Assembly: GCA_018110825.1 (NCBI GenBank)
Contig: JAGBCL010000109.1
Coordinates: 1-64,000, forward strand
DNA: 64,000 bases
Reading direction: 5' to 3'
DNA from: Oscillospiraceae bacterium
GTDB lineage: Bacteria; Bacillota; Clostridia; Oscillospirales; Ruminococcaceae
This document shows, in pieces, positions 4,732-20,956 of this stretch (the first letter of the stretch is position 1; each line of letters begins with the position of its first letter). Below the pieces are notes generated by a model. It was not told the origin of the DNA, ran no database searches, and saw only the letters and a program-made list of their open reading frames with translations. Position numbers and translations under genes: made by a program.

Positions 4732-5484
4732 TTATAGCTGTTGTAAAACGTATTCTAATATAAATTCATCAAAATTTTCTTTGTCGCAGATTTGAACATC
4801 TGCGGCTTTTATTTTTTTCGCAGTTTCATTATCGGGAACAAGTGCTGCATCTGCAAATTCAAGCATAGGATAGTCAATTGAGCTATCCCCTGCAGCAATT
4901 ACTCTTTCATAGCCGAAAAATTCACAGTAACGTTTCAGTGAAATTCCCTTATTTGCGATTGGCGGAAACCAGTACATTTTTCGTCCCGAAACCTCGAGAT
5001 CAAGAGTTGTTTCTGTAGCAAGCTTTTCAGCTAATTCTTCAATTCCGTCGCGGCTTTCACGTGCGACAAAGAGGAACATTCCATCAACTATTTTCACGGT
5101 ACGGAACAAGCCGCTTTCCTCGTATTTTCTGCAAAGCTGTTCCATTTCGGGAAGATATTTTTTCGTTTCAGAAATTGCTGTTTCCTGCCATTTTTCATCA
5201 GGCACGCCGCTTTTCAGCAGGATTGTTCCGTTACAGACAAGTGCTGTTTTTACACTGCTTGGAAGCTGTATACGGGAAAACTGTGCAATTGAACGTGTTG
5301 TTACGGGGAGAAAATCGACCTTGTCACTTTCCAGCAATTTGGCAAGAAGTTCAATTGCTTTCGGGGACATAAAGCTGATTTCACGTCCGTCATAGATTTC
5401 AACGTTAACGTCATTTTCCTTGCAAAGCCGTGCTGAGTGGATAAGGGTATTATCCATATCGCAGGCAAATAAAATCTTTTTCAT
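4732..5484 (-). CDS. HAD family phosphatase of the Ter operon
   Basis: The 250-residue protein begins MKKILFACDMDNTLIHSA, with the HAD nucleophile motif DxDxT (D9, D11). It ends with the acidic motif AAGDSSIDYPML and contains a Cof-type cap region between. HAD phosphatases of this kind accompany PRTase, CitE-like and StiP genes in Ter gene clusters, where they are predicted to dephosphorylate a nucleotide-like intermediate. The ATG at 5484 begins one base after the stop of the StiP-like gene, so an upstream start at 5499 inside that gene is less likely. It is the last gene of the operon. Confidence 0.85.
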   Translation of the reverse strand: MKKILFACDMDNTLIHSARLCKENDVNVEIYDGREISFMSPKAIELLAKLLESDKVDFLPVTTRSIAQFSRIQLPSSVKTALVCNGTILLKSGVPDEKWQETAISETKKYLPEMEQLCRKYEESGLFRTVKIVDGMFLFVARESRDGIEELAEKLATETTLDLEVSGRKMYWFPPIANKGISLKRYCEFFGYERVIAAGDSSIDYPMLEFADAALVPDNETAKKIKAADVQICDKENFDEFILEYVLQQL

Positions 5485-5485
5485 A

Positions 5486-6535
5486 TCAGGTATCGGCAAG
5501 TTTACGGATTATTCCGCAGGCTTTATAGCTTTTCAGTGGGTACTCCGCAACCTCCACGCCTTTCTCCTTTGCTAACTGGTAGATATGTCCGAGGTGCTCA
5601 TTATCGTCAAGGCTGTGCACGAGAATTTTCCAAGGTACTCTGCGAAGCAGGACTCTTGTGGTTTCGCCTATTCCCGGCTTGACAAGGTTAATGTCTGTTA
5701 CAGAAAACTCCTCGGCAATTTTCTTTACTTCTTCAACACCGCTGGTGGTTGACTCGTGGTCAAAGGTGTTGCTGCCGACAAAATCGAAGTGTTCCTCGAC
5801 GGAATTGATAAAGCTGTAGGTAAGGTCCTTATCCTTGAAGTTTTCGTAGTACATTGCGCCGTGAAATTCATCTTCACCGATTATATCGGCACGGAGAAAG
5901 GTACGGCTGATAAGTCCCGAAACGGTTGAATTAAGGCAGGAGCTTGCGATGAGGAAATCCTCGGTTGTGCCGTACTTGCCCGAAACGAGTGCGGGGTCGG
6001 AAAGGACTGCAAGTTTTGGGTCGATTTCAGGATAATCAAGCATTGCTTTATCAAGGGTAGTCTGGATTGCACCCTTGCCTACCCAACCGTCTACAAACTG
6101 GATTTGCTGTGGCTTATGACGCGACAAAATATACTTCATAGCGTTATGGTCGATGCCCTTGCCACGAATTATTGAAATTGTATAATGCGGAATATTCACG
6201 TTGTACTTGCGGTCAAGGTAATGCTTTATCAGCACGCCGATTGATGTGCCCGCTCTTGCGAGAGAAACAAGGACAGCTTCGCTTCCCTTTTCTGCATAAA
6301 TCTTTTCGGCAACGGATGCAACGGCCTTTGCGGTTACCGCGGAATATACTTTTACAGCTTCACGGTAAGTATCCATATATTTTTCCGTCGGCTCATACTC
6401 TATTGGGAGCATTTCACAATAGTGTGTTCCGCTCTGGATAAGCTTTTCACGTTCCTCGGTACTTTGAGGTGTAACCATTCCCGTTATATCCTTGAGGAGA
6501 ATTGTCACGTCCTCGGGTTTATATGAACTTCTCAT
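5486..6535 (-). CDS. StiP-like / PRTase-like protein of Ter operon
   Basis: A 349-residue cytosolic protein matching the PF11202 type found in Ter clusters (RSSYKPEDVTILLKDITG near the start). The family has been described both as phosphoribosyltransferase-like and as the cysteine protease StiP, so the activity is uncertain. Supporting a PRPP-type fold are the segments VLVSLARAGTSIGVLI and IQFVDGWVGKGAI, the latter like a phosphate-binding loop. GGAGGA lies five bases before the ATG. It sits between the CitE-like and HAD genes, as in other Ter biosynthetic modules. Confidence 0.8.
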   Translation of the reverse strand: MRSSYKPEDVTILLKDITGMVTPQSTEEREKLIQSGTHYCEMLPIEYEPTEKYMDTYREAVKVYSAVTAKAVASVAEKIYAEKGSEAVLVSLARAGTSIGVLIKHYLDRKYNVNIPHYTISIIRGKGIDHNAMKYILSRHKPQQIQFVDGWVGKGAIQTTLDKAMLDYPEIDPKLAVLSDPALVSGKYGTTEDFLIASSCLNSTVSGLISRTFLRADIIGEDEFHGAMYYENFKDKDLTYSFINSVEEHFDFVGSNTFDHESTTSGVEEVKKIAEEFSVTDINLVKPGIGETTRVLLRRVPWKILVHSLDDNEHLGHIYQLAKEKGVEVAEYPLKSYKACGIIRKLADT

Positions 6536-6547
6536 TTTGTTCCTCCG

Positions 6548-7510
6548 TTAATCCTTTATGCCGTAAACCCTGGCGAGTATCTGTATGCGTTCTGCCCATC
6601 TTGTATGACACTTTACCTCGTTCATACGGTTACCTCCGCTGCTTTTTTCCACGGCTGCAACCTCGGGCTGCCAGTCGAGAATTTTCACAGCGTCCTCATA
6701 ATCGGCACGGCTTACCTTCAGGCTATCGAAGATAATCGGCAGTTGTGTAGGGTGGATTGCTGTCTTGCCGATAAAACCGTTTAGCTTGTCAAGTTCAAGT
6801 TCGTGCTTCAGACCTTTGCACCACTCATCAGCGGTGTTGTCACCGAAATATTCCCACACTGGACCCGAAACAACATATTCTGCTGCAAAGACGTTGATTA
6901 CATCAATAAGTATATCACGGATTACACCGATATCGTAGATGGTCTGTGTTGCTGTACGACGCAAACCGTAGATGTTGCTGAAATCATTGCCGCCGACACG
7001 TATATTAAGTACGTATTTTTTATAACTGTCAAGCAGGGACTTTATTCCGCTGAGATTATCTGTACGGACATTCTTGTCGGAAATTGCTCTGCTTTCAAGA
7101 ATTGGCATAGCATAGAGAGTCTGCTTGCGATTTTCGTTGAAGCGGCTGATTGATTTAAGATACTTGCTGCCGTTGAAGATATCAAATTTTGGGAAGATAT
7201 ATCCCGTGAGTATCTTTTCATATCCTCCAAGCAGGCTGTGCATACGTTCAAGCTGTTCGGGACTTCTTACCCTTACAAAGAGGTATGGCAAATCAGCATT
7301 TGATGATGAAAGTTTACGCAGGGTTTCGCAAAGTGTAAGCTCCGCCTGTTCGGTTGCTGTATCGAGAATTGCGTCCTCAAGACAGAAGGAAACAGCGGTA
7401 AGACAGGGGTACTCCTTGTTGATGATTTTATCTGCCATTGCTGAATTTGTGGCGGGGGTATAAAGCAGACCTCCGAGGCTGTACGGGAGAATATCGTTAA
7501 AGTTGTTCAT
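6548..7510 (-). CDS. HpcH/HpaI-CitE-like lyase of Ter operon
   Basis: A 320-residue TIM-barrel protein of the citrate lyase beta / HpcH family. It has GGLLYTPATNSAMADKI, CLTAVSFCLEDAI with an acidic residue at the usual metal site, LFVRVRSPEQLERM with the conserved arginine, and a C-terminal IGKTAIHPTQLPII. In Ter clusters it is predicted to make or break a C-C bond in a small metabolite, together with PRTase and HAD enzymes. The start at 7510 (AGAGGA upstream) fits an 11-base gap after the PRTase gene; the 7534 start would overlap it. Confidence 0.85.
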   Translation of the reverse strand: MNNFNDILPYSLGGLLYTPATNSAMADKIINKEYPCLTAVSFCLEDAILDTATEQAELTLCETLRKLSSSNADLPYLFVRVRSPEQLERMHSLLGGYEKILTGYIFPKFDIFNGSKYLKSISRFNENRKQTLYAMPILESRAISDKNVRTDNLSGIKSLLDSYKKYVLNIRVGGNDFSNIYGLRRTATQTIYDIGVIRDILIDVINVFAAEYVVSGPVWEYFGDNTADEWCKGLKHELELDKLNGFIGKTAIHPTQLPIIFDSLKVSRADYEDAVKILDWQPEVAAVEKSSGGNRMNEVKCHTRWAERIQILARVYGIKD

Positions 7511-7521
7511 TTCAATTCCTC

Positions 7522-8652
7522 TTAATTTGTCCATCTGATAATATAAACTATGTTGTTTCCGCCTGCTGAAATGGAATTCAGCAAGGTGTTGATTGCGTTG
7601 TCTGTCATATTTTCTGCATCTGTAACAAGAACTACTGCATCGTATTTTCCGATGTTATAGATAAAAGTTGTTCGTTTCTCATCATAAAGACTTTTAAGTG
7701 TGTAACGTGTATGAAGCGGGTAACCATAATCCTTGCTTACTGCAATGGGGCTTCTTGTTGTTGCATGATTTTTTACGTTGCAACCGTCATCTGCAAGTCG
7801 TGCACCGACGTACATTGCAGGATACATTGTTTCCTCTGTACCAAGGACAAGCAGATTACTGAAATTGTCAAGCTTGCCTTTAATCTGCTGATAAAGCTTT
7901 TCGCAAGCTTGCCTATAAGTGTTACCGTCGGTAAGACGTCTTGCATTGACGTATCCTGTATGTGTAATTGTTTCTGCGCTGATGTCGGATTTATTTGTAT
8001 CGGCACTGACATAAGTGCCGTTGATTTCATATTTATCGGCAACCTCATCATACTCGCTGTTGCGTGTTTTCACGAGGTAATGAACGGTTATTCCCCTTTC
8101 GGCGTAGACCTTTGCGAAGGATTCGTCCATACCGTTGATGAGTGCTGCTACTGAAAATTTTATTTTTGCTGTATATATTTTTTCAATTATATTTATAATG
8201 TTGAGGATTGTGTTACCGGTTGTGACTTCATCCTCAACGAAAACGATTCTGTCGATGTCATTTATTACTGCGTCGATATCATTTTTCACCAATTTCTGTT
8301 CGGTTGCGTGGCTGTGCTGTTCAGAAAAGAAAAGGTACTCAGTATTCGGGATATTTTCACGGGTTGTCTGTATGTAGCGTGCACCAGTTTCTGCGGCAAC
8401 TGCTGAACCGATTGCTGTTGCGGTTTCGGCAAAGCCTATAAGCAGGATTTTCTCATTTGCATAAACCTGCTTGACCTGCTGTGCAAGTTCTGTAAACATT
8501 GCAAGTGATTTTCTCGGGTCAACAGGGATATGCTTGCCCTGAAGTTTATTTACCACAAGGTATTTACGCTTTGTGTTGTTTTCACGTTTTGCAACTGCTA
8601 CCAAATCTTTTTCTGTATACATTTTTAATATTTTACTCCATTCGTTAAACAT
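7522..8652 (-). CDS. PRTase-TRSP protein of Ter operon
   Basis: A 376-residue two-domain protein. The first part is a type I phosphoribosyltransferase with the PRPP-binding loop VFVEDEVTTGNT and an upstream LLIGFAETATAIG. The last third is a TRSP domain, recognised by HATTRSPIAVSKDYGYPL. It probably transfers ribose-5-phosphate to a base-like acceptor in the predicted Ter metabolite pathway. The ATG at 8652 has a weak GGTGG site; an ATG at 8622 is the alternative. No ATP-grasp gene, common in other Ter clusters, is seen here. Confidence 0.85.
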   Translation of the reverse strand: MFNEWSKILKMYTEKDLVAVAKRENNTKRKYLVVNKLQGKHIPVDPRKSLAMFTELAQQVKQVYANEKILLIGFAETATAIGSAVAAETGARYIQTTRENIPNTEYLFFSEQHSHATEQKLVKNDIDAVINDIDRIVFVEDEVTTGNTILNIINIIEKIYTAKIKFSVAALINGMDESFAKVYAERGITVHYLVKTRNSEYDEVADKYEINGTYVSADTNKSDISAETITHTGYVNARRLTDGNTYRQACEKLYQQIKGKLDNFSNLLVLGTEETMYPAMYVGARLADDGCNVKNHATTRSPIAVSKDYGYPLHTRYTLKSLYDEKRTTFIYNIGKYDAVVLVTDAENMTDNAINTLLNSISAGGNNIVYIIRWTN

Positions 8653-8655
8653 AGG

Positions 8656-8685
8656 CAAACCACCGTACTTATTGCACGGCGGTTT
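8656..8685 (-). other. intergenic hairpin before PRTase gene
   Basis: In the minus-strand transcript CAAACCGCCGT pairs with ACGGTGGTTTG (one G-U pair) around a short loop, between the Ca2+ ATPase stop and the PRTase start. No T run follows. It may adjust the ratio of upstream to downstream expression or mask the weak GGTGG ribosome site, which lies in its 3' arm. Confidence 0.45.
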
Positions 8686-8699
8686 GCTTACTTATTTAA

Positions 8700-11387
8700 T
8701 TATGCTTTCTTTGCGTCTGTTTTTTCGCTTGTTACAGCGTTTGTAATTGCCTTTCTGATAAGGTCAACAGGAATCATTGTTACAGCGAGGAGGATTACTG
8801 CAATCCAACCTATTACTCCGAAAGGTACACAGCTGAACATCTTACCGATAAATTCAAATGCACCGAGAGGGATAAGTGCTGCATTTACGATAACTGCCTG
8901 AATTGCCACGATTGCAAGGAATACACGGATGAAATCCTTGTTCTCGTTAAGTCCCTTGAAAATACCGAAGCCATCATCACGAACATTGAACCCGTTGAAG
9001 AGGGCTGCCCAGATAAAGAGAACGAAGTAACCTGTGAGGTGCTGTTCGTCTGTTTCGAAAAGGCCTCTGAAGAAAGGTACTTTGAGGTAAACGAAGCTGA
9101 GTACAACAAGCCACAGACCCATGATAACAATTCGGGTCATCATCTTCTTGCTGACAATGCTTTCGTCACGTCTGCGAGGTTTTTCGTCCATATACTTCTT
9201 GAGGGCAGGTTCGTTACCGAGCATCATTGCTCCGAGACCGTCCATTACGAGGTTAACAAAGAGAAGGTGTGTAACCTTGAGAGGTTCTTCCACGCCGAAG
9301 AAAGGTGCGAAAGCACTTACGATTACGGCTGTAACGTTGATTACAAGCTGGAAGATACAGAATTTAAGAATGTTATGGTAAATTGTTCTGCCGTACCAGA
9401 TAGCGTCCTTGATGGACTTGAAGTTATCATCGAGAACAACGATTTTACCTGCTTCCTTAGCTGCTTCAGTACCGCTGCCCATTGCAAAACCAACGTCTGC
9501 ACGCTTGAGTGCAGGAGAGTCGTTTACGCCGTCGCCTGTCATACCTACAACGAGGTTCATTTCCTGGCAAAGACGTACCATTCTTGACTTATCGGTAGGA
9601 AGTGCACGAGCAATTACACGGAGGTTAGGGATAATCTTCTTAACCTCATCGTCGGACATTTCATTAAGCTGTGCGGAGGAAATTGCAACATCTGAATTAG
9701 CTCTGAGGAGACCTGTATCCTTAGCGATTGCAACAGCAGTTTCAAGGCGGTCACCTGTAATCATTACAACCTGGATACCAGCCTTCTGTACTTCTTCGAT
9801 AGCTTCCTTGGCTTCCTGACGTACGTCGTCACGAATACCAACAAGACCGATGATTACAACGTCATCGTTTATTGTGCTTTCTGTCATTGCACTTTCGGAG
9901 TAACCGAATGCAAGTACACGCATTGCCTTTCCGGCAAGCTCATCAATCTTACGGTCGAGAACCGCATTATCGATATCGTGGATTTTTCCGTCGCCGTCCA
10001 TGTACTTCTTAGCCTTTGCAAGAAGTCTTTCAGGTGCACCCTTGTAGAAAGTCTTACCGATACCATCGATACGGCTCTGGCTGAACTTGTTTGTGGAGTT
10101 AAAGCCCTGACTTTCTGTAATCTTATACTCATCTCTTGTCTGAAGAAGATTGAATGTATCCTCACCGATGAACTTCATAAGTGCCTGGTCAGTAGCATTA
10201 CCGCCGACAACTCTGTGCTCGGAATCAAACATTGACTGTGTATTCTTACCGATTGCAACATCAACAAGACCCTTCACGTCACCGTGCTTGCTGAGTTCAG
10301 GAATATCAATGGAATTGCCGTCTGCTGTGAAGAAGTCAACAACTTCAAGCATACCCTTTGTGATTGTACCTGTCTTATCGCTGAAAAGAATATTGAGTGA
10401 ACCTGCTGTTTCGATACCCTCTGCCTTACGAACGAGAACGTTATGGTCAAGCATTTTGCTTGTGTTCTGCATAAGAACGAGAGAAATCATAAGAGGGAGA
10501 CCCTCAGGTACGGCACATACGATGATTACAACTGCGAGGGTTACTGCTTCAACAATCTTTTCAATAATGTCAGGAACAGGCTGTGCAAAGAACTCACCTA
10601 TTCCGCCTGCGTTCATAATAAAGAAGATAATGTACAGAACAGCGATTACAATAGCACCGATATAACCGAATGTGGAAATCTGCTTAGCAAGCTTAGCAAG
10701 CTTTACCTTGAGAGGTGAGTCAGGCTCGTCTTCCTGCATTTCCTCAGCCATTTTACCCATCATTGTTTTGAGTCCGACTTTTCTTACATCAAGTACGCCT
10801 TCGCCGTCAAAAACAACTGCACCTCTGAAGAGGGAGTGCTTATCAACAAATGTATCGCCTGTGATATCGTCAGGAAGCTCAAAGCTTGGGTCAGCTTCGG
10901 TTTTCTTACATTCCTCAGCTTCACCGTTAAGTGCAGAGTTGTCAACATTGAGATGTCCCGAAACAAGAATACCGTCTGCAGGAATCTTATCACCTGACTG
11001 GAGGATAATCTTATCGCCCACAACAACGTCATCAACTTCGATAATTGTTACAAGACCGTTTCTTACTACCTTACAAGTATCCTTTTTTGTGCTGTCCTTG
11101 AGTTCACGGTACTTTGTATCACTTGCCACGCCAGTCTTTGCAGAAACAAATGCAACGATAAGGATAGCAACGATTGTTCCCACCGGTTCGTAGATTTCTG
11201 CATAACCGAGGCAGAACATAACAATCATGATTGCTGCAATTACAAGAAGAATTTTAATCATGGGGTCGCCGAAAGTTTCCTTGAATTCCTGCCAGAACGT
11301 AGTAGGCTCGGAATCAGGAATCATATTCGAACCATATTTTTCACGGGAAGCTTCAACTTCGGAGTTGTTAAGTCCTTTATAATTCAT
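8700..11387 (-). CDS. PMCA-type Ca2+-translocating P-type ATPase
   Basis: An 895-residue P2-type ATPase. It has the phosphorylation motif SDKTGT (D337), the M4 ion-site motif CAVPEGLP (about 291-298), the actuator loop LNGEAEE in place of TGES, the nucleotide-domain KGAPE, the hinge TGDGVNDSPALKRAD, and ten predicted membrane helices. Such enzymes export Ca2+ from the cytosol. Here the gene lies between terD and the PRTase gene; since TerD proteins bind Ca2+, a shared role in metal or calcium homeostasis during stress is plausible. It may replace the TerC membrane protein, which is absent. Confidence 0.9.
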   Translation of the reverse strand: MNYKGLNNSEVEASREKYGSNMIPDSEPTTFWQEFKETFGDPMIKILLVIAAIMIVMFCLGYAEIYEPVGTIVAILIVAFVSAKTGVASDTKYRELKDSTKKDTCKVVRNGLVTIIEVDDVVVGDKIILQSGDKIPADGILVSGHLNVDNSALNGEAEECKKTEADPSFELPDDITGDTFVDKHSLFRGAVVFDGEGVLDVRKVGLKTMMGKMAEEMQEDEPDSPLKVKLAKLAKQISTFGYIGAIVIAVLYIIFFIMNAGGIGEFFAQPVPDIIEKIVEAVTLAVVIIVCAVPEGLPLMISLVLMQNTSKMLDHNVLVRKAEGIETAGSLNILFSDKTGTITKGMLEVVDFFTADGNSIDIPELSKHGDVKGLVDVAIGKNTQSMFDSEHRVVGGNATDQALMKFIGEDTFNLLQTRDEYKITESQGFNSTNKFSQSRIDGIGKTFYKGAPERLLAKAKKYMDGDGKIHDIDNAVLDRKIDELAGKAMRVLAFGYSESAMTESTINDDVVIIGLVGIRDDVRQEAKEAIEEVQKAGIQVVMITGDRLETAVAIAKDTGLLRANSDVAISSAQLNEMSDDEVKKIIPNLRVIARALPTDKSRMVRLCQEMNLVVGMTGDGVNDSPALKRADVGFAMGSGTEAAKEAGKIVVLDDNFKSIKDAIWYGRTIYHNILKFCIFQLVINVTAVIVSAFAPFFGVEEPLKVTHLLFVNLVMDGLGAMMLGNEPALKKYMDEKPRRRDESIVSKKMMTRIVIMGLWLVVLSFVYLKVPFFRGLFETDEQHLTGYFVLFIWAALFNGFNVRDDGFGIFKGLNENKDFIRVFLAIVAIQAVIVNAALIPLGAFEFIGKMFSCVPFGVIGWIAVILLAVTMIPVDLIRKAITNAVTSEKTDAKKA

Positions 11388-11500: not shown

Positions 11501-12088
11501 TTACATGTACTTCTTGATCATTTCACCAAGACCAGGGTCATTTGTACCCTGACCTACTGCGCTGAACTTCCATTCCCCGTTATGTCTGTAAACTTCACCG
11601 AAAATCATAGCTGTCTTGCCTGAGTAATCTTCTGTAAGGTTATACTTGTACATTTCTGTACCCTTGTTAGCGTCAACAAGTCTGATAAATGCATTCTGGA
11701 TAAGGCCGAAATGCTGCTTTCTTGCAACTGCCTCATAGATATTTACTACGATAACAATTCTGTCGTAACACTCAGGGAGGCTGTTGAGTTCAACAACAAT
11801 CTGCTCATCATCACCGTCGCCTGCACCTGTGAGGTTATCACCCATGTGCATTATAGCACCTGAGCTGTGGCGGAGATTGCCGAAATATACAAGGTCCTTC
11901 TTGCCCATAAGCTTGCCGTTCTGGAGAAGAATTGCGGAAGCGTCACAGTCGATTGGCTGTGGCTTTGGTGCAAAAAGTCCTCTGCTCTGCTTTACTTCAT
12001 CCCATCCAAGACCGATGAGAAGCTTGGAAAGACCTGCTTGTTCCTTGGAAAGGCTTACTTTCTGACCCTTCTGAAGACTGATAGACAT
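11501..12088 (-). CDS. TerD family protein, divergent paralogue
   Basis: A 195-residue TerD-fold protein (MSISLQKGQKVSLSKEQ, then [19 protein letters not shown], and a final [15 protein letters not shown]). TerD domains bind Ca2+ through conserved acidic residues. Compared with the two neighbours, the segment before the core strand is changed: FAPKPQPIDCDASAILL replaces [10 protein letters not shown] and the spacing is longer. One calcium ligand set may therefore be altered, and it may have a specialised role. It is the third of three tandem terD genes. Confidence 0.9.
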   Translation of the reverse strand: MSISLQKGQKVSLSKEQAGLSKLLIGLGWDEVKQSRGLFAPKPQPIDCDASAILLQNGKLMGKKDLVYFGNLRHSSGAIMHMGDNLTGAGDGDDEQIVVELNSLPECYDRIVIVVNIYEAVARKQHFGLIQNAFIRLVDANKGTEMYKYNLTEDYSGKTAMIFGEVYRHNGEWKFSAVGQGTNDPGLGEMIKKYM

Positions 12089-12122: not shown

Positions 12123-12704
12123 TTATTCTGTATCGATTCCGTAATTTGCACAAAGTGCTGCAAGACCGCCCTGGTATCCGCCGCCGATTGCATTGAACTT
12201 CCATTCGCCATTGTGCTTATAGAGTTCACCGAATACAACAGCTGTTTCAATGGAGAAATCCTCACCCAAATCATAGCGGATAAGCTCTTCGCCGTTGTTT
12301 TCGTTGTAGATACGGATAAAAGCGTTATTAACCTGACCAAAGTTCTGACGGCGTTCTTCAGCCTCATAAATTGTTACTGTAAAAGCAATTCTGGAGATGT
12401 TTTCAGGAATTGCTGTGAGGTTGATACGAATCTGCTCGTCATCACCGTCACCTGCACCTGTCTTGTTATCGCCGAGATGCTGAACGGAGCCTGATGTGTG
12501 GTTGAGGTTACCAAAGAAGATGAACTCCTTTTCAGTTGGACATCTGCCGTTGTCACCGAGCATAAATGCTGCTGTGTCAAGGTCGAATGAACCGCCGTTG
12601 TCAAACTGATTAATGTCCCAGCCAAGACCTACAACTACGTTTGTAAGACCCGGATTTTCCTTTGTCAGACTTACTTTCTGACCTTTGTTAAGAGATACTG
12701 GCAT
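12123..12704 (-). CDS. TerD family calcium-binding stress protein
   Basis: A 193-residue TerD protein with the canonical [20 protein letters not shown] start, [32 protein letters not shown] and [21 protein letters not shown]. The acidic clusters are the Ca2+ ligands known in the family. TerD proteins protect against tellurite, phage, colicins and envelope or DNA stress in other bacteria; the precise action is unclear. It is close in sequence to the next upstream paralogue, indicating a recent tandem duplication. Confidence 0.93.
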
Positions 12705-12723: not shown

Positions 12724-13305
12724 TTAAGCTACATCAATACCATAGTGTGCGCAAAGTGCTGCAAGACCGCCCTGGAATCCGCTGCCGATTGCGTTGAACT
12801 TCCACTCGCCGTTATGACGGTAGATTTCGCCAACAACGATAGCTGTTTCGATTGAGAAATCTTCGCCAAGATCATATCTTACAAGCTCTGTATTTGTTGC
12901 CTCATCAACGATACGGATGAAAGCATTGTCTACCTGACCAAAATTCTGACGTCTTGCGTCACAGTCATAAATTGTTACTGTAAAAGCAATCTTGGAAACA
13001 TTGGCAGGGATTTTGCTAAGGTCAACGAGAATCTGCTCGTCATCACCGTCACCCTCACCTGTAAGGTTATCACCCTGATGTTCAACGGAACCGCTTACAT
13101 GTTTGAGGTTACCGTAAAAAACAAATTCCTTTTCCGTAGGACACTTGCCGTTTTCACCAAGCATAAATGCTGCTGCATCAAGGTCAAAAGCTGCACCTGA
13201 ATCATAAACATTTACGTCCCATCCGAGACCTACCATTACATTCTTGAGGCTTGGATTACCTTTTGTAAGGTCTACCTTCTGACCCTTTGCTAAACTGATT
13301 GACAT
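12724..13305 (-). CDS. TerD family calcium-binding stress protein
   Basis: A 193-residue TerD protein ([84 protein letters not shown]). It is nearly colinear with the neighbour at 12123-12704 and has all the expected acidic positions. It is the first terD after telA, with a 12-base gap, so the four genes are certainly one transcription unit. The products may form mixed assemblies at the membrane, but this is inference. Confidence 0.93.
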
Positions 13306-13317
13306 AACTTTTTCCTC

Positions 13318-14406
13318 CTATGCTTTTTTATTAATTCCGTCAAACCTCGCCATTGCTCTGACAAGTGCTGTCTGATAGTCAATGCGTTGTTTAGCGGCGT
13401 TATTCTGTAACTTTTTAAATTCGTCAATACTTCCGACGATTGCACTGTGAAGCTCGGAGAGCTTTGTATTTTTTCCTTGCGCACCTGCATTAAGCCTCTG
13501 TTCTAGCTGTTCACGATGAACATTATCTCTTGCATTGGCAAGGATTTCCTCTTCCATTCGTCTGTTTAGTGCAGCCATAGCCTTATTTTCAAGTGTCTGA
13601 CGTTTAACACTTACAGCTTGTGAAAGTGACTGATTGAAAATCGGAAGCGTTACCAGAAAAGCTGTATTGATTTTTTTCATAAGGTTGGAATTACTCAGTT
13701 CCATTGCCTTTATCATCGGCACGGACTGGATTGCGATACTTTCTGCGATTTTCAGGTCATTGGTACGATTCTGAAGAAGCATAAGCGCATTTTCGAGATT
13801 TTCCATCTCTGGAAACAGCAGTTTGTCACCTGTTTTTGCAAACTCATCCTTCAATTCATTAAGGTAATCCTCAATCTCACGGCAACCCTGCTCACCTGCG
13901 GCAATATATTTCACAAGTTCACGATAATAAGCTGTGTTTGCCTCAAACATACGGTTGAGATTGCGGTTTGAGTCGGCAATTTTCGCTTCATACTGTTTAA
14001 GGCGGATAAAAATTTTATCTGTTTCCTCACCGATAACACGGTATTTCTCATAAATTCTGTCAGCCTGCTTTTCTGTGTTTCCGAAAAACTTGCCCATAAT
14101 GCCCTTTGCTTCTGCCTGAATTTCACCGATATTGATTTTTGACATAAGCTTTGCCAGCTCATTCATTACATCACTTGACTCGGAAATCTGATTCATACTG
14201 ACATTTTTCAGTACAGCATCCGAAGCTTGCGCAACTTGCTCTGCTGCACGCTTGCCAAACGATGTTATAGTATTCAGGTCAGCAACATCAAGAGTGCTTA
14301 CAACCGCGTCAAGCTCATCTGTACCTGCAAGACTTTCGGTTATAATCTGTCTTTCAGCAGATATATCATATGGACGGAATTCATCAAGCTCAAATTCATT
14401 TGCCAT
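13318..14406 (-). CDS. telA: toxic anion resistance protein TelA
   Basis: A 362-residue, largely helical cytosolic protein of the TelA/KlaA family (PF05816): NTITSFGKRAAEQVAQASDAVLKN near the front, GFFG-like loop KGIMGKFFGN, then long coiled helices and ALNRRMEEEILANARDN. TelA is linked to tellurite and lantibiotic resistance and normally accompanies terD genes; its biochemical role is unknown. Its ATG overlaps the stop of the YceG-like gene by one base (TAATG), a sign of tight translational coupling. Confidence 0.92.
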   Translation of the reverse strand: MANEFELDEFRPYDISAERQIITESLAGTDELDAVVSTLDVADLNTITSFGKRAAEQVAQASDAVLKNVSMNQISESSDVMNELAKLMSKINIGEIQAEAKGIMGKFFGNTEKQADRIYEKYRVIGEETDKIFIRLKQYEAKIADSNRNLNRMFEANTAYYRELVKYIAAGEQGCREIEDYLNELKDEFAKTGDKLLFPEMENLENALMLLQNRTNDLKIAESIAIQSVPMIKAMELSNSNLMKKINTAFLVTLPIFNQSLSQAVSVKRQTLENKAMAALNRRMEEEILANARDNVHREQLEQRLNAGAQGKNTKLSELHSAIVGSIDEFKKLQNNAAKQRIDYQTALVRAMARFDGINKKA

Positions 14407-16879: not shown

Positions 16880-17455
16880 TTATTTCTTTTTATTAAGTGC
16901 ATATCCTGTTACAGAGCCGACTGCACCGCCGAGGATATGAGTAAAATTCGACACATTATCTGTTGCAAACAAGCCAAGATAAATCTGCTCGCCGATATAT
17001 ATTACTGCAACAAGTATAAATGTAAGCGGAATTTCTCCGTTTTTGAAGCCGGTTATTGACGAGAGAAGAATAAATGCAAATACAACACCGCTTGCACCGA
17101 GCAACTGTACATGTGGGAAAAGCAGGACATTGGCAACTCCGGTTACAATTGCTGTAATAAAAATAATACATCCGATATTCCATGAGCCGTACTTTTCTTC
17201 AAGAAGCGGGCCCACAACAAGTATCAGCATTATGTTACCCATAAAATGTGAAATATCTGCATGGCCGAAAACATGGCCGATAAAACGTACATACGTCAGT
17301 GGACTGAGCAGGGATGATTTGTACACGCTGAACACAAGGTCATTAGTTTTGCCGTTTGTAATATAACCGAGGATTAGTGCTACAAGGCATACACAGGTAA
17401 AGCCGATTATCACAGGAGAATTAAATGTTACTTTCAGTTTCAGCTTTCCGCTCAT
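16880..17455 (-). CDS. rhomboid family intramembrane serine protease
   Basis: A 191-residue protein with six membrane helices and the rhomboid catalytic dyad: Ser122 in GASGVVFAF and His173 in NFTHILGGAVGS. The HADISHFMGNIM segment gives the family's H-x4-N motif in helix 2. Rhomboids cleave single-pass membrane proteins within the bilayer. GAGGTGA supports the start. Its place between a trypsin-like protease gene and the YceG gene, with gaps of 11-13 bases, makes it a full member of the Ter operon and suggests stress-dependent membrane proteolysis. Confidence 0.9.
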   Translation of the reverse strand: MSGKLKLKVTFNSPVIIGFTCVCLVALILGYITNGKTNDLVFSVYKSSLLSPLTYVRFIGHVFGHADISHFMGNIMLILVVGPLLEEKYGSWNIGCIIFITAIVTGVANVLLFPHVQLLGASGVVFAFILLSSITGFKNGEIPLTFILVAVIYIGEQIYLGLFATDNVSNFTHILGGAVGSVTGYALNKKK

Positions 17456-17468
17456 TTTATCACCTCTA

Positions 17469-18869
17469 TCAGTTTTTCAGTCCCATAAGGAACGCATTTA
17501 TATATTCATAACTTACAGCAAGGTTAAGATTCTGACCTGCGTCAAAACCTGCGGTACTTATACCGATTACCTCACCGTTCATATTAAGGATTGCTCCGCC
17601 TGAGCTGCCGTGGGATATAGGTGCGGTAAACTGTATCATTTCCACACTATCAATCAGACGAAAGCCTGAGATAATACCATCGGAAACGGAATTAAAAAGG
17701 CCCAGCGGACTTCCTATTGCCACCACTTTCTGACCTCTTACAGGCTTTTTGCCGTTATAAATCGGGATAGGAGCAAGACGTCTGTCAATTCTTATCACGG
17801 CAAGGTCGATTACAGGATTGTATTTAATAATCTCATCAGTATGATAAACCTCTTCATCATCTTCGATACGGACAGAGTAAAAGCTTCCTCCCCTTGCCAC
17901 GTGATTATTGGTAAGAATATATCCCTTTTCGGAAATCATAATTCCTGAGCCTGTTCCTATAACGTCGCCTATTGAGTTATGTATTGCAATCATTACCACT
18001 GAAGAAGCAAGCCCTGCAAGCTCCTCCATAGATTTTTCTCTTGTTACGGTACTATGCACAGGAGTATTGTTCGAAAAATTAGCAACTGAATGTATTCTGT
18101 CAGCACGCTGAGGAATACGGACACGTACATTATTCGTCGATGAAACGATTGGTTCGCAAACGCACTCAGGCTGTTTGGATACTGTGTTTTGCGGTTTGTA
18201 TTCCGGAACAGCTTCGTTGCTGAACGTGCCGATTATGAACTTTACTGAAAATCCGTATCTTTCAAGGTCGCTGCTGATATCCTCTCTGCTTTGCAGCAAA
18301 AGCACATCAAATCCGCACAGGGTCAGCATATAGAAAAACAGATATTCCTGAATTTTGGTTATATTATCAGCACAAATCTTAACTGTTTCTTTACCGCTGT
18401 ATCTGCCGTGAAATTCAGGGACAATATTATCGAACCAATACAACAGCTTCACTGCGAAATTTTCCTGCATTGACCTGCTTATTCCCTGCTTTGCTCCGCT
18501 GAATATTTCAAGCGTTTTTTTCAATGCAGAAGCAAGAATTTCCGAAAGGGGCGTACCTGCTGTACGCTTAACTTCAATTACATTGAAGCCACCATTTTCG
18601 CATTTTTTGAAGCAGTTATTATAATATGATACATCATTTGCAGAAGTAGGAATTGGCATGGAAGAAACACGGTTACACAACATTGCTCCACTATAAAAAG
18701 CCTTATCAAGCCTTCTCAGATTTTCGGAAAAATCTGAATCTAAGCCTATTGCACGGACAAAATACACATCCTTACAGCCGTTATTGAAGCCTCCTCTTAT
18801 ATTGCAGAAGGCGTCAATCGAAGAAATATTCATTATATTATGCCTTACAGCCATGCCGCAATTACTCAT
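17469..18869 (-). CDS. YceG-like domain fused to trypsin-like protease
   Basis: A 466-residue two-part protein. Residues about 27-215 resemble the first unit of the neighbouring YceG protein: KDVYFVRAIGLDSDFSENLR with VSYYNNCF, and YMLTLCGFDVLLLQSRED. After a linker, residues about 285-466 form an S1C/HtrA-like protease with a complete triad: His323 in TNNHVARGG, Asp355 in VIDLAVIRID, and Ser423 in GSSGGAILN. There is no PDZ domain, signal peptide or membrane anchor, so it should be cytosolic. It is the first gene after the operon promoter. The ATG at 18869 has a weak ribosome site; Met13 (18833) is an alternative that matches the YceG N-terminus better. Confidence 0.85.
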   Translation of the reverse strand: MSNCGMAVRHNIMNISSIDAFCNIRGGFNNGCKDVYFVRAIGLDSDFSENLRRLDKAFYSGAMLCNRVSSMPIPTSANDVSYYNNCFKKCENGGFNVIEVKRTAGTPLSEILASALKKTLEIFSGAKQGISRSMQENFAVKLLYWFDNIVPEFHGRYSGKETVKICADNITKIQEYLFFYMLTLCGFDVLLLQSREDISSDLERYGFSVKFIIGTFSNEAVPEYKPQNTVSKQPECVCEPIVSSTNNVRVRIPQRADRIHSVANFSNNTPVHSTVTREKSMEELAGLASSVVMIAIHNSIGDVIGTGSGIMISEKGYILTNNHVARGGSFYSVRIEDDEEVYHTDEIIKYNPVIDLAVIRIDRRLAPIPIYNGKKPVRGQKVVAIGSPLGLFNSVSDGIISGFRLIDSVEMIQFTAPISHGSSGGAILNMNGEVIGISTAGFDAGQNLNLAVSYEYINAFLMGLKN

Positions 18870-18939: not shown

Positions 18940-18968
18940 ATTATACAACATTCCTTTATATTTGTCAA
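18940..18968 (-). promoter_or_regulatory. consensus promoter of Ter operon
   Basis: On the minus strand TTGACA, exactly 17 bases and TATAAT. A 5' untranslated region of about 60 bases follows. This full-consensus promoter is the only clear one for the twelve-gene run down to 4732. Confidence 0.8.
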
Positions 18969-18992: not shown

Positions 18993-19025
18993 AAAAACTC
19001 CCTGCTTTTTCAGCAGGGAGTTTTT
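18993..19025 (-). terminator. terminator of the sensor-GGDEF gene
   Basis: AAAAACTCCCTGCT and its perfect 14-base complement around a 5-base loop. The structure touches the stop codon of the minus-strand gene at 19025 and insulates it from the Ter promoter. Confidence 0.8.
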
Positions 19026-20956
19026 CATATACGCTGTTTCTTGCGTTCGATTTTGTTTCTGTACATTCTTTCATCAGCAGTATTGATAACATTATTAATA
19101 TGAAGATTTTCAACGCTGCTGTATGCATAACCTATACTTGCAGTTATCACATAAGGCTTATCCAGATTTTCGTTAAGCTGTTTAAGCTTTTGTGTAAACA
19201 CTTCTGAATCCTTTTCCAGAGTTTGTTCATCTATTTTGCCGACACCAAAAACATAGAACTCATCGCCGCCTGCACGTACACAGATTTCATCAGGCGTCAT
19301 GATAGCTGAAGCAGCCATATACACGGTTTTGATACCAAGGTCACCATCATTATGTCCAAAGGTATCGTTGATATATTTCAATCCGTCCATATCAATTACA
19401 AAGACATACAGCAAGTCATCCTTTTCTGCGTTTGAAACCATTTCGTCAATCTTCATCTTCATGCCGCGGCGATTATACGCACCTGTCATTTCGTCACGTA
19501 CAGACAACATCATCAGCTTATTCTTTGCTTGCACCATTTCCAGCGACATATTAACAAAACGCAGCCAATTGCGGTAAACAAGATTCACTGTAGGACTTTC
19601 ACTCATAAATCGGTGAAGAACTGCATAACCGTATGTCTTTTCCATAAAGTGAACTGTAGAAAAATAAAAAACAGACGGCTCTGCGGTATCTTCCCAAAGC
19701 TGAGGAAGCATGATTGATGTATCAAATTCAATTGCTTCATTGTCTTTGAAAAAGCCCGTATTAAGTTCTTGTGCTGTATGGACAACAATTTTCATTCTGT
19801 CAGGATATCCGCTTTCGATAACCTGCTCCGTATCGAGCCAGTTTTTGTTGAGGCAAAGGTAGAAATTCTTATACGGCTTATTCATATAAGTCATCATATA
19901 GATATTTTCAAGGCATTCCTGCGGAGTTGTTGAGCCTGAGAATATTTCAAGAATATATCCTTCCATAAGCTGACCGATATCGGCATTCACATAAAAATCC
20001 TCTTTTTCATAATCAGGGTAAATATTGTAAAACGCCTCCCTAAATTCCTTAACAAGGTTTGTCGTATCTGACATGCATCCGCAGCTTATTGCACAGTGAA
20101 TATGTCCCTTTTCACCTATGGAATAAGGTATTATTTCCGCTTCCGGTTCAATCTGATTTCTTATCATGTCAACAGCGTCAGCAGCAGACTGTGACGCATT
20201 GGATTCAAAGGATGTTATTGTAAGATTATTAAGAATTGATTCCTGAGTTGCCTCAAAACCTGTTACAATTATATCCTCAGGAACTTTTATTCCTAACTTC
20301 ACAATACGGTTTACAAAACCAATCGCCATATGGTCACTTGCACAGATAACCGCCTCAGGCTTATGAATTTTGCCTGCAATAATATCATCGGCAAGTTTGG
20401 TACCGCTTGAATACCAAAAATCACCGTAAATTATGCTGTCCTCGGATACGGCAATACCCTTTTCCCCCATATACCTGCGGAATGCATCTGCTCTTTCCTC
20501 AGCAATATTGTACCCCTTCTGTCCCGTCAGGAAAAGCACATCACGGACATTATGCCCATCAATGACATGATCAACGATTTCCTTGAAAATCGGACTGTCA
20601 CTATTCTGTGCAACAGGATAATCGGACAAAGGAACATTCAGTGAGATAACCGGCTTGTCACATTCTGATTTAAGACGCCCTATAATCTGGTCAGTTACAT
20701 ATGTTACATTATCGGCATTTATTGAAATAACATCTACAATTACAGCATCAAGCATGTCAAAATTCGGCAGTTCATATATATTGAGTTCACCTTTAAGATA
20801 TTCCGTATTCTTACTGGAAACATTTATCATAGGTGCGAAAACAGCAACATTGTAGTCATACTTTTCACATTGTGCAAAAATACCGTTAAGCACGCGTTTT
20901 GCATGAATTGATTCCGGCAATGCTGTTATAACGCCTATAAGCTTACGTTTTCCCAT
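19025..20956 (-). CDS. LacI-type sensor fused to GGDEF domain
   Basis: A 643-residue protein. The first about 300 residues look like a LacI/PurR-type periplasmic-binding fold (LIGVITALPESIHAKRVLNGI, NVRDVLFLTGQKGYN, PEAVICASDHMAIGFVNR, PEDIIVTGFEATQES) without the HTH or a signal peptide, so it is a cytosolic sugar-type sensor. A linker of about 180 residues leads to a GGDEF domain (DEMTGAYNRRGM, VIDMDGLKYINDTFGHNDGD, RAGGDEFYVFG) with an intact catalytic motif. It should make cyclic-di-GMP under ligand control. No RxxD inhibitory site is seen at the usual position. It is monocistronic and diverges from the NSS gene. Confidence 0.88.
   Translation of the reverse strand: MGKRKLIGVITALPESIHAKRVLNGIFAQCEKYDYNVAVFAPMINVSSKNTEYLKGELNIYELPNFDMLDAVIVDVISINADNVTYVTDQIIGRLKSECDKPVISLNVPLSDYPVAQNSDSPIFKEIVDHVIDGHNVRDVLFLTGQKGYNIAEERADAFRRYMGEKGIAVSEDSIIYGDFWYSSGTKLADDIIAGKIHKPEAVICASDHMAIGFVNRIVKLGIKVPEDIIVTGFEATQESILNNLTITSFESNASQSAADAVDMIRNQIEPEAEIIPYSIGEKGHIHCAISCGCMSDTTNLVKEFREAFYNIYPDYEKEDFYVNADIGQLMEGYILEIFSGSTTPQECLENIYMMTYMNKPYKNFYLCLNKNWLDTEQVIESGYPDRMKIVVHTAQELNTGFFKDNEAIEFDTSIMLPQLWEDTAEPSVFYFSTVHFMEKTYGYAVLHRFMSESPTVNLVYRNWLRFVNMSLEMVQAKNKLMMLSVRDEMTGAYNRRGMKMKIDEMVSNAEKDDLLYVFVIDMDGLKYINDTFGHNDGDLGIKTVYMAASAIMTPDEICVRAGGDEFYVFGVGKIDEQTLEKDSEVFTQKLKQLNENLDKPYVITASIGYAYSSVENLHINNVINTADERMYRNKIERKKQRI

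Follow-up and report, generated by a model that had tools for sequence, protein, structure and literature searches.

A trypsin-like protease joined to a YceG-type domain at the likely head of a Ter operon in an Oscillospiraceae bacterium, with relatives in other Clostridia

To our knowledge, the biochemical role of the proteins encoded by core Ter (tellurite-resistance) loci is poorly understood, and a gene that joins a YceG-type domain to a trypsin-like serine protease within such a locus raises the question of what a protease would do there and how it would be tied to the rest of the system. The gene lies in the window, a stretch of 64,000 nucleotides from an Oscillospiraceae bacterium (assembly GCA_018110825.1, contig JAGBCL010000109.1), and is read on the minus strand from an ATG at 18869 to a last base at 17469, encoding 466 amino acids, while the plus strand of the same interval contains many stops. 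The features of the gene and of the operon that follows it are collected in Table 1.

Table 1. Coordinates in the window of the YceG-like–trypsin fusion gene, its parts, its upstream signals and the downstream Ter genes.
Feature	Coordinates	Strand	Evidence
YceG-like–trypsin fusion gene	17469..18869	-	466 aa
YceG-type domain, residues 23-196	18282..18803	-	PF14266 above cut-off; hhalign against YceG unit 1, E 1e-12
Low-conservation linker, residues 216-273	18051..18224	-	family alignment; highest dN of the three parts in 5/5 pairs
Linker motif VRVRIPQR, residues 248-255	18105..18128	-	common to part of the family; also at L043-L052, L054-L056, L037, L038, L040, L041, L145, L148-L150
Trypsin-like protease domain, residues 307-437	17559..17951	-	PF13365, 88.5 bits
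Catalytic triad codons	H323 17901-17903; D355 17805-17807; S423 17601-17603	-	invariant in alignment
Promoter-like site TTGACA-17-TATAAT	18940..18968	-	consensus match 12/12, ~70 bases 5' of the fusion ATG
Stem-loop and T-run, end of preceding GGDEF gene	about 18993..19020	-	by eye; absent from scan list
Rhomboid-family membrane protease gene	16880..17455	-	PF01694, 75.1 bits
Three-unit YceG protein, 820 aa	14406..16868	-	PF14266, three stretches, 354.4 bits
TelA	13318..14406	-	PF05816, 208.5 bits
TerD copy 1	12724..13305	-	PF02342
TerD copy 2	12123..12704	-	PF02342
TerD copy 3	11501..12088	-	PF02342
PMCA-type calcium-translocating ATPase	8700..11387	-	TIGR01517 above cut-off
Phosphoribosyltransferase with TRSP domain (PRTase_2–TRSP)	7522..8658	-	PF15609, PF12500
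C-C bond lyase	6548..7534	-	PF15617
StiP–PELOTA protein	5486..6535	-	PF11202, PF15608
HAD-like gene, end of run	4732..5499	-	label by eye only

The initial annotation had noticed by eye that the N-terminal half resembles the first unit of the YceG protein encoded two genes downstream, and profile comparisons and a tree of YceG units both bear this out; the lack of profile similarity that would have refuted it was not encountered. (In papers on Streptococcus and E. coli the name YceG denotes a different family.) The protein scores 39.8 bits (E 5e-10) with the YceG_bac profile PF14266, for which the curated cut-off is 25, and 41.4 bits in the whole-genome search. Compared by hhalign with the separate units of YceG, an alignment of 18 N-terminal domains matches unit 1 with a probability of 97.8 and unit 2 with 96.5 (E 7e-10), and fails to align credibly with unit 3 (probability 0.3, E 0.18). 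In a tree of 84 units, drawn from these 18 fusions and from 24 YceG proteins, all but one of the fusion domains (17 of 18) form a single branch (support 99/94), and the remaining one, an incomplete domain from genome G471, is placed with unit 1 of the three-unit YceG (90/51). A larger group, with support of 91/85 that lies below the starred level, unites the fusion domains with unit 1 of three-unit YceG proteins and one long-branched L081 unit, leaving units 2 and 3 outside. Among the two-unit YceG proteins (n=5), unit 2 joins unit 3 of the long form in all five, and three have a unit 1 that groups with the long-form unit 2, those of L081 and L083 being placed apart. From these placements, the lone unit of the protease and the extra first unit of long YceG proteins are probably of common origin.

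The domain is unevenly recognisable across the family. At E up to 1, PF14266 matches 14 of the 21 aligned members (one of the 21 being a vWA fusion described below), with scores as high as 71 bits for the G493 member and 77.4 bits for that of G471, and some members are barely recognisable, that of L148 reaching 17.5 bits with a custom profile. In G471 an in-frame TAA splits the YceG-like–trypsin gene (L082, G471:C1:1552061-1553466), and PF14266 matches nothing in that genome apart from the two parts of this gene. A sequence search of solved structures with YceG returned none at E up to 1, and the same search with the N-terminal domain returned seven unrelated-looking matches (E 0.095-0.96) and no credible relative. 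The predicted model of the window YceG has a mean pLDDT of 70.3 and a pTM of 0.36, and its VIA-align rows barely cover unit 1.

The C-terminal half carries a complete catalytic triad, for which the annotated numbering, H323-D355-S423, proved exact; all three residues are invariant in the 21 aligned members, and the catalytic-site motifs are kept in all 10 further members scanned. Because the triad is kept, the protease is predicted to be catalytically active. The nearest solved sequence, the S1-type domain of the anti-sigma factor RsgI9 (7sjy), has T where the nucleophile of the fusion aligns, a feature that could favour a catalytically silent, peptide-binding scaffold; the retention of H, D and S throughout the family makes such a role very improbable. 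R404, also invariant in 21 of 21, sits one residue off an Arg of DegS in the alignment, a residue which we presume to be important there, and is a lead as a regulatory arginine. Like DegP, DegS and DegQ of the HtrA/Do group, the protein has a trypsin-type domain with this triad (E 1e-18 to 1e-19 against DegP/DegS-type chains); it differs in scoring 110.2 bits with the NCBIfam model TIGR02037, far under the cut-off of 416.2, and in having neither a PDZ match nor an export signal. The absence of both, as annotated, agrees with the Pfam scan, which finds no PDZ domain in a chain that ends 29 residues past the protease match, and with the hydropathy profile, in which no export signal or membrane anchor is apparent (maximum 19-residue value 1.49; first 60 residues 0.67, versus 2.53 in the neighbouring rhomboid protein). 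Since no signal was found, the protease is probably cytosolic.

The membership of the fusion in a Ter system is read from its gene context, as the window operon contains TerD, TelA, YceG, the ATPase and biosynthetic genes. The genes are closely set, with 13 bases between the fusion and rhomboid genes, 11 between the rhomboid and YceG genes, and an overlap of 1 base between YceG and TelA. These close-set downstream genes, a terminator-like stem-loop on the preceding gene, and a promoter-like site upstream of the fusion (a consensus match alone, with 7 sites in the region versus 7.5 expected from shuffles at a 9-of-12 threshold) together make the fusion gene the likely head of the Ter operon, as first proposed. 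The preceding gene (19025-20956) encodes a LacI/periplasmic-binding-type domain joined to a GGDEF domain. Outside the window, contig C92 of the source genome (L042:8475-11249) encodes another YceG–TelA pair, in which YceG has two units; the ORFs of the 18-kb stretch read there gave no match to TerD or to the protease. The three-unit YceG was considered as a marker of the protease and set aside, because G493 and G118 pair a fusion with a two-unit YceG and several genomes with three-unit YceG have no member of the protease clade. An obligatory partnership with the rhomboid protein was likewise rejected: a rhomboid gene is present in 10 of the 30 fusion loci introduced below (window, L043, L044, L046, L055-L057, L041, L146 and L147), a count in which some of the remaining stretches are too short to tell, and the Ter locus of L116 has a rhomboid gene without a fusion in its 18-kb stretch.

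A pattern-based scan of 84,980 species genomes yielded 15 relatives in which both domains are covered. Their genomes, every one assembled from a metagenome, are titled Oscillospiraceae, Ruminococcus, Lachnospiraceae or other Clostridia. Further searches covered overlapping draws of genomes, 197 from the family, 391 from the class, 398 from the phylum and 295 from the order. Together they bring the number of distinct YceG-like–trypsin proteins, including that of the window, to 30 (window, L043-L057, L037, L038, L040, L041, L081, L082, L142, L143 and L145-L150; L144 and L049, on contigs of equal length and with identical proteins as listed, are counted once). In a tree of protease domains, these 30 fusions and one further protein, L039, form a single clade (100/99) that excludes the 33 trypsin-type domains used for comparison, namely 7 weaker matches from class genomes, 2 from phylum genomes and 24 family-search matches. 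Ten of the 391 class genomes pass E 1e-45, and three of them (the source genome, G493 and G471) belong to the clade; five of the 398 phylum genomes pass 1e-50, three with fusion-clade members; and all eight passing genomes among the 295 of the order belong to it. The weaker matches, at 156-177 bits, are other proteins, found in seven of the ten class genomes and two of the five phylum genomes, and those of the class genomes look secreted by eye, hydropathy having been measured for three. When the N-terminal domain alone was searched against the class genomes, the G493 protein was the only further fusion among the matches listed.

The recurrence of the fusion in other Ter loci, envisaged at annotation, is observed in most of the family: 26 of the 30 distinct fusions adjoin at least one gene matching the window Ter genes (phmmer, E at most 1e-4 in one set and 1e-3 in others, with the HAD-like gene serving among the references). 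For 21 of them the adjoining genes include YceG, TelA or TerD, and for five (L037, L038, L054, L145 and L148) they are biosynthetic-module genes only. Four fusions have no Ter neighbours (L047, L040, L082 and L143); that of L047 lies on a 4.6-kb contig with ferredoxin and BlaR1-type genes, and Ter genes are present elsewhere in the genomes of L040 and L082. The fusion gene is often the first of the operon or divergent from the Ter genes (L081, L145, L148-L150); it ends the run at L053, L146 and L147, and at L037, L038 and L142 it is oriented towards the Ter genes. Among 197 genomes of the same family, 28 have YceG and six have the protease clade (called above 200 bits, the next match being 95.8), all six within the 28. 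A separate YceG gene is present in 6/6 clade genomes versus 22/191 others (Fisher p 5e-6, with kinship only partly corrected) or, counted by genus, in 5/5 versus 13/120 (p 3.7e-5). In two of the six, G139 and G158, the clade member is unlinked to Ter genes in the stretch read, and the clade is missing from 22 of the 28 YceG-bearing genomes.

Selection on the two halves was compared in five close pairs. The dN/dS of the protease half is 0.02-0.12, that of the YceG-like half 0.09-0.19 and above the protease half in all five pairs, and that of the linker 0.21-0.33 or saturated. By these values purifying selection acts on both domains, and strongly on the protease half. The faster evolution of the latter, also evident in a mean column identity of 40% versus 71% for the protease, would suit a protease of general protein quality control that is tied to the Ter genes by nothing more than a common promoter and has the N-terminal domain as a passenger. 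That account is quite improbable given the purifying selection on the domain itself, the frequency of Ter linkage and, among the family genomes, the confinement of the clade to those bearing YceG.

The sporadic spread of the clade, present in six of the 197 family genomes, would also be expected of a defence or suicide effector, with Ter modules detecting phage or toxic attack and the protease harming either the invader or the cell itself. Similarity of the protease half to defence-linked models, those for the protease part of RT-Protease XI in PADLOC, was recorded at 62.1 and 59 bits. The fusion shares with that system a C-terminal trypsin-type domain, matched at 62.1 bits over residues 274-460, and differs in having a YceG-type domain in place of a reverse transcriptase, for which the Pfam scan gives no match. 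In the available text of two studies, Ter components and trypsin-type effectors of conflict systems are described (PMC7824862, PMC7159879) and no YceG–trypsin fusion was seen, and jumbo phages are suggested to use Ter systems against superinfecting phages (PMC7824862). Against an effector of this kind, Pfam scans of the operon genes other than the HAD-like gene reveal neither a reverse transcriptase nor a nuclease, and the strong purifying selection also fits housekeeping proteolysis. Carriage as phage or plasmid cargo was rejected after searches of mobile elements, as the N-terminal domain finds no match in phage records and a single weak YceG match in plasmids, and none of 51 candidate stretches from IMG/VR encodes a relative. 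On balance, a role in defence is improbable.

The region between the two domains varies from 41 to 202 amino acids across members and contains, in part of the family and in otherwise variable sequence, one to four copies of a motif of roughly the form VxVxIPxR or looser. In its strict form (hydrophobic-x-hydrophobic-x-[IL]-P-x-[RHK]) the motif occurs in 17 copies in 12 of 20 linkers, with at most 2 in shuffles, and in its looser form in 28 copies in 18 of 20, with at most 5 in shuffles, both patterns having been drawn from the same linkers. In 10 later linkers, the core motif is found in four, with five copies (0/5000 shuffles reach five copies and 1/5000 reaches four linkers), and the strict form in one, with two copies (2/5000 shuffles). 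On these counts the motif was rejected as a universal feature and is assigned to part of the family. A scan of further Ter proteins from L037-L057 did not find the strict form in any of them. As to its role, one may guess at a pseudosubstrate, with Ile before Pro, or a docking motif.

Freely varying linker length is what would be expected of loosely coupled domains, and it would be compatible with a YceG-like domain that acts as a sensor, in which a small molecule or metal made or met by the Ter system switches the protease on or off without docking. Several positions of the domain are conserved (N137 in 20/21, K164 in 19/21, E175 in 19/21 and G186 in 21/21), and the fusion often adjoins PRTase, lyase or HAD biosynthetic genes, in the five cases above these alone. 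Other positions vary, such as D188 (kept in 11/21), R39 (15/21) and Q193 (15/21), and in the literature covered no ligand of a YceG domain was found, nor a credible solved relative by sequence. Ligand sensing is regarded as unlikely, while remaining the strongest of the alternatives to docking.

An indirect indication that the N-terminal domain may address the protease comes from L039 (L039:11691-12884), in which a vWA domain that we take to be TerY-like (Pfam gives VWA) is fused to a protease of the same clade in place of the YceG-like domain. The L039 protease falls inside the clade (98/88 with 20 of the fusions). Judged by sequence, a second Ter-type domain, the TerY-like vWA, occupies the YceG-like position in this protease clade, in an architecture found in one genome only. 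L039 has no Ter neighbours in the stretch read, and its genome has YceG and TelA. In this position a vWA would more readily be expected to bind proteins than to sense the ligand that a YceG-like domain would. A separate vWA, in L123, presumably also of TerY type, is 39% identical to that of L039 over 180 amino acids; it belongs to a single run (L123:7798-18715) of vWA, PP2C, kinase, ATPase, a TerD domain ending a 405-aa protein, YceG and TelA. No such vWA–PP2C–kinase run occurs among the window operon genes.

Pairwise distances among 16 loci provide a further lead. Those of the fusion correlate with those of the YceG protein (r 0.69, or 0.84 without L081; 0/5000 permutations as high), a lead for a possible partnership, with permutations that ignore shared species history. 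No such agreement is seen between the fusion and TelA (r 0.29, 340/5000 permutations as high, or 0.15 without L081, 918/5000), although TelA itself correlates with YceG (r 0.71, 3/5000, or 0.50 without L081, 50/5000).

The unit-1 relation, the shared distances and the domain replacement in L039 are the grounds on which docking to YceG is proposed. We give about an even chance to a cytosolic, HtrA/Do-like serine protease that would dock on the Ter system's YceG assembly through its lone YceG-type unit, whose closest counterpart is unit 1 of the three-unit YceG encoded in the operon. Docking would place and hold the protease at that assembly, and once the system is triggered, the protease would cut a Ter-associated or stress-damaged protein. 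The initial annotation had proposed either such addressing to the Ter complex or sensing of its metabolite, in a protease that stress would activate. Counting against docking, no interaction, cleavage or phenotype of the fusion protein was found; it is nonetheless clearly favoured over ligand sensing. A bolder extension, which we consider speculative and improbable, gives the Ter systems of this phylum an exchangeable arm for proteolysis: a single clade of cytosolic proteases would join the Ter machinery through an address domain, either YceG-type or TerY-type vWA, and a Ter signal would lead to the cutting of a specific target. YceG units would here be degenerate AAA+-like modules, and YceG and protease together an ATP-independent counterpart of unfoldase–protease pairs. 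The Walker A pattern [AG]xxxxGK[ST], the P-loop test for such a relation, occurs in one of 52 scanned sequences, at residue 114.

YceH of Bacillus subtilis is presumably a TelA-type protein. The yceCDEFGH operon of this species (PMC3498285, in the portion available) resembles the window operon in having YceG with Ter-type neighbours, and both the PF14266 and TelA profiles match B. subtilis; the window operon adds a three-unit YceG, the rhomboid protein, a P-type ATPase, a biosynthetic module and the fused protease. In the accessible part of another study, a yceGH mutant loses competition in an insect model and not in a survival assay, and yceGH is linked to defence against reactive oxygen (PMC6813211). 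The initial annotation knew of no described system with the form of the fusion, a statement that proves too strong. Already in 2008 a fusion of TerD to trypsin, YP_273108.1 from Pseudomonas syringae, was listed as not functionally characterised, according to the excerpt available (PMC2605481), and protease-coupled Ter proteins are consequently not wholly new. As in the window fusion, a Ter-system domain lies N-terminal to a trypsin-type protease; this single proteobacterial protein differs in having TerD where the window protein has YceG, and the two are set beside each other by description, their proteases uncompared. No YceG–protease fusion was described in the titles and abstract openings searched, a coverage without most subscription papers and the main 2012 Ter survey, and an earlier mention of the YceG–trypsin architecture may exist.

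A YceG unit that shares its chain with a protease offers an enzymatic handle on the Ter system, as the substrates and partners of the protease would point to the target of the Ter complex. The vWA member of the protease clade offers a direct test of the address role of the N-terminal domain. Other bacteria in the phylum of this gut bacterium carry the fusion in their Ter stress loci as well, and a poorly understood stress system thereby gains a protease with targets that can be sought.
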